Below are positions 41,900-45,797 of a stretch of 64,000 bases of DNA, piece by piece. The notes under the pieces were generated by a model that ran no database searches, was not told the DNA's origin, and saw only the letters and a list, made by a program, of their open reading frames with translations. The DNA comes from Alphaproteobacteria bacterium (GTDB lineage Bacteria > Pseudomonadota > Alphaproteobacteria > DSM-16000 > Inquilinaceae), in the NCBI GenBank assembly GCA_028281925.1, contig JANQIX010000055.1:124001-188000 (forward strand), given 5' to 3'. The position numbers and the translations under genes are program-made. The stretch's first letter is position 1. Each line of letters begins with the position of its first letter.

Positions 41900-42583
41900 C
41901 TACTTCGCCTGTGCGGCCGTTTCCTTGACGGCCTCGGACGGTGCGTCCTCGGTCTTCGCTGCCGCTTCCGCCTTCGCCGACTCGGTCAACTGCTTCATCG
42001 TCCGGATCTGGGCCTGCAATTCGTCGAGACGCGCCTGCAGCTCTTTCGCAGTCGCGTCGGCGGCTGCTGGCTGGATGGCTTCGGTCGCCTTGCCCGATGG
42101 AAGCGAACCACCGCCCGCCGCAGCGAACGGCGAGAACATCCGCATCGCCCGCTCGAACATGGCAACGTTCTGCTTGCCCATCTCCTCGAACGCGCCGAAC
42201 GGGAACAGCCCGCTGACCGTCTCCTGGAAATAGGCGCGCATCTGCTCCTGATTCCGGGCGAAGACCTGCATGGAGTATTCCAGGTACCGAGGCACCATCC
42301 ACTGCATGTTGTCGCCGTAGAGGCTGATCAGCTGCCTGAGGAAGCCGATGGGCAGCATGTTGTGCCCCTTGGCCTCCTCCTCCACGATGATGTGGGTCAG
42401 CACCGATCGGGTGATGTCCGCGCCGGTCTTGGCGTCGTAGACGACGAAATCGGCACCGTCCTTGACCATCTGGCAAAGGTGATCGAGCGTCACATAGCTG
42501 CTGGTCGCGGTGTTGTATAGGCGCCGATTGGCATACTTCTTGATCGTGATAGGCGCGCTGTCGCCGGTATCTTTGTCGCTCAT
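41900..42583 (-). CDS. phaR: Polyhydroxyalkanoate synthesis repressor PhaR
   Basis: A 227-residue protein. The N-terminal PhaR DNA-binding domain reads ITIKKYANRRLYNTATSSYVT. Then come DGADFVVYDAKTGADITRSV and the PHB-accumulation regulatory domain (LPIGFLRQLISLYGDNMQW). A coiled-coil and Ala/Glu-rich tail ends the protein. PhaR represses phasin and PHA genes and leaves DNA when it binds PHA granules. Start 42583 follows AGGAGCG. It is divergent from the coiled-coil/PHA-synthase-like pair, a likely target. Confidence 0.93.
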   Translation of the reverse strand: MSDKDTGDSAPITIKKYANRRLYNTATSSYVTLDHLCQMVKDGADFVVYDAKTGADITRSVLTHIIVEEEAKGHNMLPIGFLRQLISLYGDNMQWMVPRYLEYSMQVFARNQEQMRAYFQETVSGLFPFGAFEEMGKQNVAMFERAMRMFSPFAAAGGGSLPSGKATEAIQPAAADATAKELQARLDELQAQIRTMKQLTESAKAEAAAKTEDAPSEAVKETAAQAK

Positions 42584-42740
42584 CGCTCCTGCCTCGCGGG
42601 TACGCGCAGAGCCGCAGCCTTGCAACCCTTACACTTGGTAGCGGATCGCGGCGGTGCAGCGCAAGTACTTGGACATGGTCGGGTGCCCGGACCAACTCTG
42701 TCCTAGGCAACGGATCATACCGTTCGATATAGTTGGAAAC

Positions 42741-43181
42741 ATGTCTGAGAGCCGGGATATGGCCGATCTGGCCCGCCGATACCTCGATCTGTGGCAGGAA
42801 CAGTGGACGGCCATGGCTGTCGATCCGGAGTCGTCCGAGGCCTTGGGTCGCATGGTCGGTCTGTTCAATCAACAGATGGCGGCGCTGGCACCTCTGATGC
42901 AGGTGCCGTTCTGGCCACTGGCTGCCGCCACGCGACGGGAGGCCGAGGATGACAGCGCCGGCCACGCATCTGCCCAGACAGGGACCGAGGCCGCTGGCGC
43001 TGCATCTGATGCTGGCGCAGACGGCGTGGCTGAGCTCACTCGCCGCATTGCCGCGCTTGAGCAACGGCTCGAGCGACTGGAGGCTGCCGGGACCGCCGGC
43101 CAATCCGGAACTGACGCAGACGGCAAACGCCCTGCTCGCCCGCGAAGCCGAAGGCGTTCCGGCCCTTCTGCGGGAGATTAA
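42741..43181 (+). CDS. PhaE-like coiled-coil protein
   Basis: A 146-residue protein. The N-terminus ADLARRYLDLWQEQWTAMA resembles the start of small PhaE-type or phasin-like partners of PHA synthases. It is followed by a Gln/Met-rich helix, an Ala/Gly/Asp linker, and a coiled coil near residues 97-115 (ELTRRIAALEQRLERLE). The end is a basic Arg/Lys tail (KRPARPRSRRRSG), unusual and possibly DNA- or granule-binding. The last 233 bp overlap, in another frame, the PHA-synthase-like gene. No strong SD is seen; start 42741 is chosen on conserved-looking sequence. The PhaE assignment is an inference. Confidence 0.65.
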   Translation: MSESRDMADLARRYLDLWQEQWTAMAVDPESSEALGRMVGLFNQQMAALAPLMQVPFWPLAAATRREAEDDSAGHASAQTGTEAAGAASDAGADGVAELTRRIAALEQRLERLEAAGTAGQSGTDADGKRPARPRSRRRSGPSAGD

Positions 43182-44181
43182 CCGCCGCTTCGCCCTGTTG
43201 CATCAGGGCCTCGCGTGCTATCGCCATCACGCCTATCGCCGGACACTGCCCGATCCGCCAACCCTCTGGCAGGAAGGGAACACGCGGCTCTTGGACTATC
43301 GGCCCGAAGGCGGGCCGGCCGTGCTGTTCATCCCCTCGCTCGTCAACCGCAGCTATATTCTCGATCTGTCGGCGGACCGAAGCTTCCTGCGCTGGCTCGC
43401 CGGCCAGGGGTTCCGGCCGCTGCTGGTCGACTGGGGGCGGCCGGATGAGGCGGCGCGCGGCTTCACGCTGACCGGCTACATCGCCGGGCGGTTGGATCGC
43501 GCGTTCGACGCGGCCCTGCATTACGCACATGGCGCCATGCCGGTGGCGGGTTACTGCATGGGCGGCCTGCTGGCAGTCGCCCTGGCGCAACGGCGGCGCG
43601 ATGCGGTCAGTGCCCTGTTGCTGCTGGCCACGCCCTGGGACTTTCATGCCGAGGCAGCGGGCCAGGCCAGACGGCTGGGGGCACTTGCCACCTTTCTTGC
43701 GCCGATGCTCAGCACTTGGGGCGAGTTGCCGGTGGACGTGCTGCAGACCTGCTTTGCCGCTCTCGACCCGTTGCTGGCGGCGAAGAAGTTCACTGCCTTT
43801 GCCCGCGGCTCAGGCACTGGCGAGAAGGCCGATGCCTTCGTGGCGCTGGAAGACTGGCTGAACGACGGCGTGCCGCTGGCCGGCCCCGTGGCGACGGAGT
43901 GCTTGGCCGGCTGGTACGGTGAGAACACGCCCGCGCGCGGGATCTGGCGCGTCGCCCATCGGCCGGTGCGGCCCGCAGCGATCGGCCGGCCGAGCCTGCA
44001 CCTGATCCCGGCACAAGACCGAATCGTACCGCCGTCAAGCTCCAAAGCCCTTGCTGCAGAGATGCCCGGCGCGCAGGTGCTGGAGCCGAGCCTTGGGCAT
44101 ATCGGCATGATGGTCGGCGGTGGTGCCCCGACCGAGGTGTGGCAACCCGTCGCGAACTGGCTCGAGGCAAGAGCCGGCTGA
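42949..44181 (+). CDS. PHA-synthase-like alpha/beta hydrolase (PhaC family)
   Basis: A 410-residue alpha/beta hydrolase with a Cys nucleophile in the PhaC lipase-like box AGYCMGGLLA (Cys203). The acidic residue is in HLIPAQDRIVPP (Asp357) and the His in SLGHIGMM (His384). The N-terminal half has FIPSLVNRSYILDL, also PhaC-like. It is shorter than class I PhaC (~590) and nearer class III PhaC (~350-400), which needs a PhaE partner. ATG at 42949 has GGGAGG at good distance. The 5' 233 bp overlap the upstream gene out of frame. PhaR lies divergently, supporting a role in polyhydroxyalkanoate synthesis, although an unusual acyl-transfer role is possible. Confidence 0.85.
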   Translation: MTAPATHLPRQGPRPLALHLMLAQTAWLSSLAALPRLSNGSSDWRLPGPPANPELTQTANALLAREAEGVPALLREINRRFALLHQGLACYRHHAYRRTLPDPPTLWQEGNTRLLDYRPEGGPAVLFIPSLVNRSYILDLSADRSFLRWLAGQGFRPLLVDWGRPDEAARGFTLTGYIAGRLDRAFDAALHYAHGAMPVAGYCMGGLLAVALAQRRRDAVSALLLLATPWDFHAEAAGQARRLGALATFLAPMLSTWGELPVDVLQTCFAALDPLLAAKKFTAFARGSGTGEKADAFVALEDWLNDGVPLAGPVATECLAGWYGENTPARGIWRVAHRPVRPAAIGRPSLHLIPAQDRIVPPSSSKALAAEMPGAQVLEPSLGHIGMMVGGGAPTEVWQPVANWLEARAG

Positions 44182-44327
44182 TGCACGCCCTGATGCCGAT
44201 GCCGACAATCGGGCCCCTGGCCGGGGGACCGCCGCACGAACTTGGACACGCCCCCCAGGGCACAGGGACCGTGCCTCGCGCGCCCTCAACGACCTCTCCA
44301 TCGTGACAGCAGAACTGGAAAAGTGAG

Positions 44328-45797
44328 ATGTTCTTTGCGTACATAAGAACATCGAAATTCCGCATCCTCTTGGAGCTAATGGTTTGGAGTACAGTTGCAA
44401 CCATTTTGACGCTATCCGTAGTTTACACGTTTCTTGCTGCCCCCACAGCAGACGATTTCTGCCGAGCGTCAATATCGACGGAAGACGGTGAGTGGCTGGC
44501 CTTCATTGCCGATCGATATCATCACTGGACCGGAAGATGGTCCGCAATGGCCATTTATGGATTGATATTCCCCGCCTTCGATCATACAAGCATAAACTAC
44601 ACTCTATTTATTTCTATATCTTTGCCTCTTTGGATAATTTCATTCTGGTTTGCGATCCGGCTTCTTTGGGGTGACGCGAAAGGACAGATCAGAAATCTGC
44701 TGCTGGCGACCCTCTTGACCGCAGTTTATTGGACGATGCTGCCGGCGCCTGGGCAGACTTGGTATTGGGCAACGGGGCATGTGGAGTATCAACTCCCGTT
44801 CCTGCTTTCCGTCATCTGTCTCTCCGTCCTCGGCACGTACTTTGCCGCTCCAGGGTCTGGGCTGAGAAACGCCATTCTTGCGATCGTGGTGTCAGGGCTG
44901 GCCTTCATCGTGACAGGGCTGAATGAGCTGATCGCCCTTTTCCTGGCCGCATTGTTGGGAATTGGTGCGGTCCTGGCAGCCACGCACCGTCTCCGCGGGA
45001 ACGCGGCCCTGATCGTTCTGATACTCGCGGTGACGGTCATCGGCCTTTACATCAGTACTTCCGCCCCGGGAAACCGGATACGCCTGGACACGGACTTCCC
45101 AAACAGCGGCACCCTTGCAGGCTTCCTTTCGGCGATGACGTACGGACTTGGCCAGTCGGCGCTCCATTGGGTGCTGGACATCAAGGTCTGGGCATTGGCC
45201 GCGATCCTACTGCTGAGCACCGACATCTCCGGATCGTCGCCGGCCTGGGCCCGCAGCCGCCCCCCAAAACCCATGCACTTCTTGCCCTGGTGGGTCATCT
45301 GTCTGGTTGTCACATTGGCCGCAGCTTTCGCCGGCAGGGCGACCGTCGCATATGGCCAGGGATCTCCGCTTCCCGGCCGTGTGTCGAACATCCTGCTTGC
45401 CTGGTTCCTGATAGGCTTGATCGCGACTCTCGCCGCGGTTGGACCTCGCCTCGTTCAGTGGTTCGCCAGGCGGCCGGGTCGGCACCAAGTATATGGCGCC
45501 GCCGCGGGATTGGCGCTGGTCTTCGCTCTCTTGGCAGCTCCCAATTCCCGCTACGCGATTTCCGATCTGTCCGAAACCCTCGCTTGGCGAGACACCGAAG
45601 AGCGTCGGTATGCGCAGATCCGGGACAACATAGCCGCCGGTGAGACCAACATCGTCCTGGCCCCCATAGGTTTTACCCCCCGCCTATTCTTCTGGAGAGA
45701 ACTGTCGGAGGATCCCGATCACTGGCGCAACCAGTGTATGGCGCGGGAGTTCGGCGCGGACACGATCGGGGTGTCGCGACAGGGCGGGACGCCGTGA
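44328..45797 (+). CDS. DUF6056-like polytopic membrane protein
   Basis: A 489-residue protein with about ten TM helices. The first TM is followed by ADDFCRA, then HHWTGRWSA, an AWGHxE-like NELIAL in the middle, and SAPGNRIR after the sixth or seventh TM. These conserved motifs match the DUF6056 family, often near surface-glycan genes and related in layout to GT-C glycosyltransferases. The 5' ~350 bp are clearly AT-richer than the neighbours. ATG at 44328 lacks a strong SD. The C-terminal periplasmic part is short (RLFFWRELSEDPDHWRN). Probably transferred. Confidence 0.75.
   Translation: MFFAYIRTSKFRILLELMVWSTVATILTLSVVYTFLAAPTADDFCRASISTEDGEWLAFIADRYHHWTGRWSAMAIYGLIFPAFDHTSINYTLFISISLPLWIISFWFAIRLLWGDAKGQIRNLLLATLLTAVYWTMLPAPGQTWYWATGHVEYQLPFLLSVICLSVLGTYFAAPGSGLRNAILAIVVSGLAFIVTGLNELIALFLAALLGIGAVLAATHRLRGNAALIVLILAVTVIGLYISTSAPGNRIRLDTDFPNSGTLAGFLSAMTYGLGQSALHWVLDIKVWALAAILLLSTDISGSSPAWARSRPPKPMHFLPWWVICLVVTLAAAFAGRATVAYGQGSPLPGRVSNILLAWFLIGLIATLAAVGPRLVQWFARRPGRHQVYGAAAGLALVFALLAAPNSRYAISDLSETLAWRDTEERRYAQIRDNIAAGETNIVLAPIGFTPRLFFWRELSEDPDHWRNQCMAREFGADTIGVSRQGGTP

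Follow-up and report, generated by a model that had tools for sequence, protein, structure and literature searches.

A 233-nt overlap between the genes of a predicted small helical protein and a putative PHA synthase in Alphaproteobacteria

Gene content and annotation of the locus

The window, a stretch of 64,000 nucleotides from an alphaproteobacterial genome, carries two genes, here called E and C, that overlap out of frame next to a divergently transcribed phaR gene (Table 1). Both ORFs proved to be open with the boundaries that the initial annotation gave them. The third base of each C codon is the first base of an E codon, residue m of E lies opposite residue m-70 of C, and C covers only about half of E.

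Table 1. Features of the E/C locus (window coordinates)
Feature	Position	Strand	Basis or remarks
phaR, repressor of PHA synthesis, transcribed away from E/C	41900..42625	-	Among the listed ORFs; probable ATG start near 42583
Promoter of E, TAGGCA - 18 nt - TATAGT	42704..42733	+	Ends 7 nt before E ATG; 1 found vs 0.2 expected in shuffles; position conserved
Gene E	42741..43181	+	146 aa; ATG 42741, stop 43179-43181; small and helical; carries a LARRYLDLWQ motif, a coiled coil and a basic tail
E residues 4-53, predicted hairpin of two helices (4-27 and 29-53), coded by E only	42750..42899	+	Model; conserved LDLWQ motif, W18 invariant
GGGAGG, SD-like site for C, inside E	42937..42942	+	6 nt before C ATG; SD-like signal in relatives
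Gene C	42949..44181	+	410 aa; ATG 42949, stop 44179-44181; class III-like PHA synthase (putative), invariant C203 (GYCMGG), D357, H384
Dual-coding E/C overlap	42949..43181	+	233 nt, E stop included; frame openness, selection in both frames
C residues 16-36, N-terminal helix inside overlap	42994..43056	+	Predicted structure and conservation
E residues 92-119, coiled-coil helix wholly within overlap	43014..43097	+	Model and shuffle test; most constrained dual-coding stretch

The usual gene order among relatives is phaR transcribed divergently from E/C-phaA-phaB: phaR lies upstream in 78/78 named loci with enough flanking sequence, and phaA and phaB lie downstream in 59 and 53 of 68 loci, respectively. 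In the window itself, a long membrane-protein-like ORF (44328-45797, plus strand) lies 3′ of C, where relatives carry phaA and phaB. Elsewhere in the same genome (G000), contig C19 carries a separate canonical class III phaE-phaC pair on the minus strand (locus L198, 188-2616; PF09712 E-value 1.1e-38), of which the phaE frame (1372-2616) and the phaC frame (188-1297) do not overlap. Two larger PhaC-like frames are found on contigs C71 and C77.

E appears to be an upstream gene that has gone undescribed and was overlooked in annotation. In seven PLSDB records of Azospirillum plasmids, the sole feature under the E match is a hydrolase gene, which is C, and no gene is listed for E, with the qualification that the PLSDB gene table is incomplete and the original records for this region could differ. 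The open-access literature that was searched describes no gene overlapping phaC in these bacteria.

The synthase-like protein C

The C protein scores 151.8 bits against the TIGR01836 PHA synthase model, under the curated cut-off of 365.3, and by this comparison is related to PhaC yet outside the curated TIGR01836 subfamily. Its cysteine C203 (in GYCMGG), D357 and H384 are invariant across 58 aligned rows of relatives. Among solved structures, its predicted structure (mean pLDDT 92) is matched best by full-length Aeromonas caviae PhaC (Z 32.1, 309 aligned residues, rmsd 2.9 A), and C thus combines the PhaC alpha/beta fold, as predicted, with the Cys-Asp-His triad. C may be tentatively annotated as a class III-like PHA synthase, a putative polymerase.

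In the model of the C N-terminus, residues 16-36 form a helix and residues 53-92 a long one, joined by a loop (38-50) that is predicted poorly. C also has an extra N-terminal region that is missing from the gammaproteobacterial PhaC matches; over the N-terminal 90 residues the structural matches gave no informative range, save one row from residue 25. Conservation within the C family begins at residue 10 with RxGPRPLxLHL, which bears out the family-like N-terminus attributed to the protein initially. The contrary outcome, that homologues of C begin only after position 43181, was looked for and did not hold; their conservation starts well before that point.

Distribution of E among relatives

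Relatives of C were collected from genomes belonging to its own family and class and from 80 named loci (Azospirillum, Nitrospirillum, Stella and Pelagibius among them). Sequences sharing their first 600 nt entered the count as one locus, giving 173 non-identical C loci; three PhaC paralogue loci (L002-L004) were left out of the counts, and 60 further loci were picked by hand from search hits not yet represented by a locus, with low identities favoured. The presence of E was called with an E profile, an earlier step with tblastn and a regular expression for the motif having missed 21/173 loci, eight of which show E by eye.

By the profile, E is present in the same relative frame in 161/173 loci, and the contrary outcome of an upstream frame broken in relatives did not hold either. 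By C identity, E is present in all 114 loci at 50% or more, 31/33 at 45-50%, 11/15 at 40-45% and 5/11 at 30-40%. The E frame overlaps the aligned start of C in 159 of the 161; in L184 and L190, no part of C aligns before residue 75-78, and the end of E lies shortly upstream of that point. E is absent or undetected in 12/173 loci, namely L033, L142 (where the sole profile match is on the minus strand) and ten without a match, among them L171, which has an E-like N-terminus by eye. L033 encodes the first half of E with an LDLWE motif and no coiled coil, stopping before C, a natural escape from the overlap. L181, L187, L192 and L194 form a small clade of C homologues in which E is undetected, offering a natural E-less comparison. 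Since L169, L181, L187 and L188 retain the C N-terminus with E undetected, C can do without E in some lineages.

A tree built quickly from 172 C sequences requires at least seven changes to account for the pattern of E presence and absence, and the earliest-branching sequences (L191, L186 and L193, on a tree rooted on one distant PhaC, so that the rooting is uncertain) carry E; both observations suggest that E is old and has been lost repeatedly.

Some labels of the collected records deserve caution. The contig of L034 (JANQQD010000253.1) is labelled as an Anaerolineae MAG and encodes a C protein 98% identical to that of the window, which makes a binning or labelling error probable for this record; several MAG labels of "Rhizobium" and "Asaia" among the C relatives look equally doubtful.

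Selection in both reading frames

Synonymous shuffling of each frame provided the null expectation for the other in 139 representatives (less than 85% identity) of the 165 loci with a full N-terminus, with up to 600 pairs per divergence bin out of 6000 sampled; because the pairs and the sequences are related by descent, the Z values of these tests cannot be read as probabilities. Over C residues 10-62, the E frame is open in 124/139 representatives compared with 84 expected from shuffling, whereas the third frame is open in 15 compared with 30 expected. Openness was set aside as the main proof of coding, being a weak criterion in GC-rich DNA.

Amino acid conservation is more telling. In three divergence bins, the BLOSUM score of the E frame in the overlap was 0.56, 1.22 and 1.71 against -0.20, 0.21 and 0.47 when C was shuffled synonymously, while a downstream control region without E gave much smaller drops (0.25 to 0.12, 0.94 to 0.62 and 1.48 to 0.99), matching those seen in the third frame. 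The E-frame excess is strongest at C residues 26-44, which face E residues 96-114 in the coiled coil, and apart from composition it is gone after about residue 44. Reciprocally, the score of the C frame fell from 1.80 to 0.05, from 2.33 to 0.51 and from 2.86 to 0.87 when E was shuffled synonymously. Fourfold degenerate sites of C were more conserved in residues 10-44 than downstream (0.460/0.376, 0.548/0.468 and 0.626/0.525).

The periodicity of substitutions was computed for 25 disjoint pairs chosen from 88 close pairs (Table 2). In the part coded by E only, the variable position is the third base of E (C position 2), with a change rate of 0.160 compared with 0.085 at E position 1 and 0.046 at E position 2, whereas in the part coded by C only it is the third base of C. 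Within the overlap, variation at the third positions of both E and C is suppressed; in the coiled-coil segment, C third positions change at 0.103 and E third positions at 0.048 (Fisher p about 2e-19 and 6e-19).

Table 2. Change rates by C codon position in 25 close pairs
Part	C1	C2	C3
E only	0.046	0.160	0.085
Coiled-coil overlap	0.023	0.048	0.103
Remaining overlap	0.067	0.110	0.176
C only	0.067	0.039	0.226

Both frames are, on strong evidence, under protein-level selection across the overlap, and the constrained substitution in each frame, together with the periodicity, upholds the dual coding of 42949-43181 first proposed for this DNA. E and C are almost certainly a real dual-coding pair, and one that the tree suggests is old. 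The notion that the E frame arises passively from GC-rich coding in the second frame of C draws on the fact that high GC keeps off-frames open (84/139 by synonymous shuffling alone), but it leaves unexplained the E-frame conservation above the null, the presence of E in nearly all loci including AT-richer ones (such as L180 and L193), the third-position periodicity, the half of E that lies outside C and a promoter placed at the E ATG. The shuffle test and the substitution periodicity refute it, and it retains barely any credibility.

Expression signals

The promoter upstream of E is the sole promoter-like site within 42560-44400. A TATANT hexamer ends 5-10 nt before the E ATG in 106/149 loci, a count in which, among multiple candidate ATGs, one that fits a -10 box was preferred; the loci with a single candidate start, which avoid this preference, have TATANT at 5-10 nt in 76/113, compared with seven sites over the other 74 distances combined. 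A TGGnCA-like element is enriched 18-24 nt 5′ of the -10 box in relatives. With a conserved promoter whose end lies 5-10 nt from the ATG, the spacing expected of leaderless genes, E is probably leaderless, judging from these sequence patterns.

The C start lies 208 nt after the E start and 230 nt before the E stop codon. Termination-reinitiation coupling, in the cited account, requires overlaps of a few nt (PMC10666635). It cannot operate on a start in mid-E, and C must therefore initiate on its own inside E; the earlier suggestion that the overlap fixes the stoichiometry of the synthase and its partner is not supported, for the same reason, the distance being too great for stop-start coupling. 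The GGGAGG noted initially before the C start is indeed present. Across 135 representatives, SD-like 4-mers precede the C start in 62 (random positions: 18%), and the stronger 5-mers do so in 26 (random positions: 3%).

These signals bear on two further explanations of the overlap. If E were a regulatory upstream reading frame controlling access to the C start, with an inert peptide product, ribosomes entering at a probably leaderless E start would have to cross the region of the internal C start, as such a mechanism needs; yet the amino acids of E are conserved, not its openness alone, the variable sites of the E-only region are E third positions, and the E-frame excess peaks in the coiled coil, all of which make this explanation very improbable. 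Fusion of E and C by programmed frameshifting is suggested by two overlapping frames on the same strand and was rejected for want of a conserved slippery site: slippery heptamers in the E phase occur in the overlap of 17/139 representatives with no common place, and C starts have SD-like sites of their own. The chance of such a fusion is slimmer still.

Features of the E protein

E is predicted to fold into three helices (4-27, 29-53 and 92-119), the last of which supports, with block pLDDT up to 97, the coiled coil recognised at the outset; the model as a whole has a pTM of 0.32. W18 is invariant in 71 aligned rows. The basic tail also recognised at the outset is substantiated: the net charge of the last 25 residues is positive in 106/120 loci, and its mean of +5.0 compared with +2.6 in C-synonymous shuffles makes the tail more basic than C coding alone imposes. 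The coiled coil and the tail are nevertheless low-information features. In the models, the two proteins divide the overlap between them: the E coiled coil faces the C loop predicted to be disordered, and the long helix of C faces the disordered tail of E.

Searches of Pfam, NCBIfam and PHROGs placed E in no known family and gave weak matches of coiled-coil type only, and the solved structures that matched were coiled coils only. The initial description of E as PhaE-like is weakly supported. None of 71 E proteins matches PF09712 (PhaE) at an E-value of 0.1 or less, and hhalign of single-sequence E against PhaE gave nothing. Alignment against alignment, hhalign gave scores of 14.7 and 22.6, each exceeding every one of 60 column permutations (single-target P 0.0097 and 0.00035) and too low for a claim of homology, with both ends of E (the LxRxYxxxW motif and the coiled coil) aligning in order with the ends of PhaE. 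What stands is this faint profile similarity; homology to PhaE is not claimed. No solved structure matching the PhaE of the home genome was found, and a search run without a positive control found E in 0/16 genomes carrying a class III-like PhaC.

Proposed role of E

The explanation favoured here, and considered likely, is that E and C are an old, functional pair heading a phaCAB-type PHB operon, in which E is a small synthase partner, PhaE- or PhaM-like in role. Counting against it are the loci in which C retains its N-terminus with E undetected, the truncated E of L033, the want of significant PhaE homology, the low information content of the coiled coil and tail, and the undetectable transcripts of R. 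rubrum phaC1. The computations show retention of the pair through much of the class, with loss or truncation confined to a minority of lineages. Transcription would start at or a few nt from the E ATG, E would be read from a leaderless mRNA, and C would be initiated separately at the site within E. The N-terminal helical hairpin of E may bind C or the granule, its coiled coil may oligomerise and its basic tail may contact nucleic acid or the granule surface; the partner would be encoded by DNA that also specifies the N-terminal helices of C. By analogy with known systems, the best-supported role of E is to act on or with the synthase, which is rather probable. The more specific proposal that the operon synthase requires E as its second subunit or activator, E being a leaderless miniature PhaE with its coiled coil encoded out of frame within the C helices, is tentative, a realistic possibility short of being expected.

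E might instead be translated as a tether between granule and nucleoid or as a regulator, acting for instance on phaR or on how many granules form, rather than as a synthase subunit or activator, the overlap being a locked-in accident. The basic tail and coiled coil would suit a tether, PhaM, PhaF and PhaH being described as doing likewise (PMC13052382), and some lineages keep C without E; a direct partner fits better with the position of E immediately 5′ of C, like that of phaE before phaC in the same genome, and with the single E match in the home genome, where no E locus was found outside C. A tether or regulator of this kind is accordingly rated unlikely.

Long same-strand overlaps are often written off as annotation error. 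The E/C overlap is one with selection in both frames over a whole bacterial class and a promoter at the start of the hidden gene, and it heads the PHB operon of the well-studied, plant-associated Azospirillum, where the seven public records list no E gene. In bacteria that make PHB, this synthase probably has a partner protein that has escaped study. Should E turn out to be such a partner, then in knocking out these synthases or expressing them in other hosts a further protein was changed or left out without anyone being aware of it; if it is an obligate subunit or activator, heterologous tests without E have under-measured their activity. The pair is also a tractable system for studying how two frames divide structure between them.

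Comparison with known systems

Thermus rpmH/rnpA is a classic long same-strand overlap. More than 300 codirectional overlaps longer than 75 bp have been counted in 58 prokaryotic species, according to the cited survey (PMC2174442). E/C shares this genome feature, and differs in that selection has been measured in both frames across a class.

The gene order of E/C loci is that of Rhodospirillum rubrum phaC1-phaA-phaB and Azospirillum brasilense phbCAB, and the cited portions of those accounts make no mention of a gene at the position of E (PMC4026134, PMC10383645). The published R. rubrum phaC1 primers match none of the 217 loci, so the link of phaC1 to these loci rests on the translation of one primer, O280, whose reverse complement encodes VEDWLN, matching the invariant EDW(L)N of C; R. 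rubrum phaC1 thus probably belongs to the C family. Its transcripts are reported as undetectable, with PhaC2 the main synthase, under the conditions tested in the cited study (PMC9999600).

In the sections cited, PhaE is described as part of a two-subunit synthase, and PhaM as an activator of PhaC that ties granules to DNA through its basic C-terminus (PMC9049629, PMC13052382); PhaM, PhaF and PhaH are all described as anchoring granules on the nucleoid by a C-terminus that binds DNA (PMC13052382). By description only, E resembles Cupriavidus necator PhaM in having a candidate N-terminal part for binding the synthase or granule and a basic C-terminal tail, DNA-binding in PhaM; PhaM differs in its size of 32 kDa, and those sections mention no overlap with phaC (PMC9049629, PMC13052382).

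From class III PhaEC, the pair differs in several respects: PhaE has about 340-470 aa compared with 146 in E, which leaves PF09712 unmatched; the phaE and phaC frames of the home genome do not overlap, unlike those of E and C; and C falls well short of the TIGR01836 cut-off and has its extra N-terminal region. In common with PhaE, E has a short tryptophan-containing helix motif near the N-terminus and a coiled coil with an Ala/Lys/Pro-rich tail at the end, E lies directly 5′ of C as PhaE precedes PhaC on contig C19, and C has the predicted PhaC fold with invariant Cys, Asp and His.
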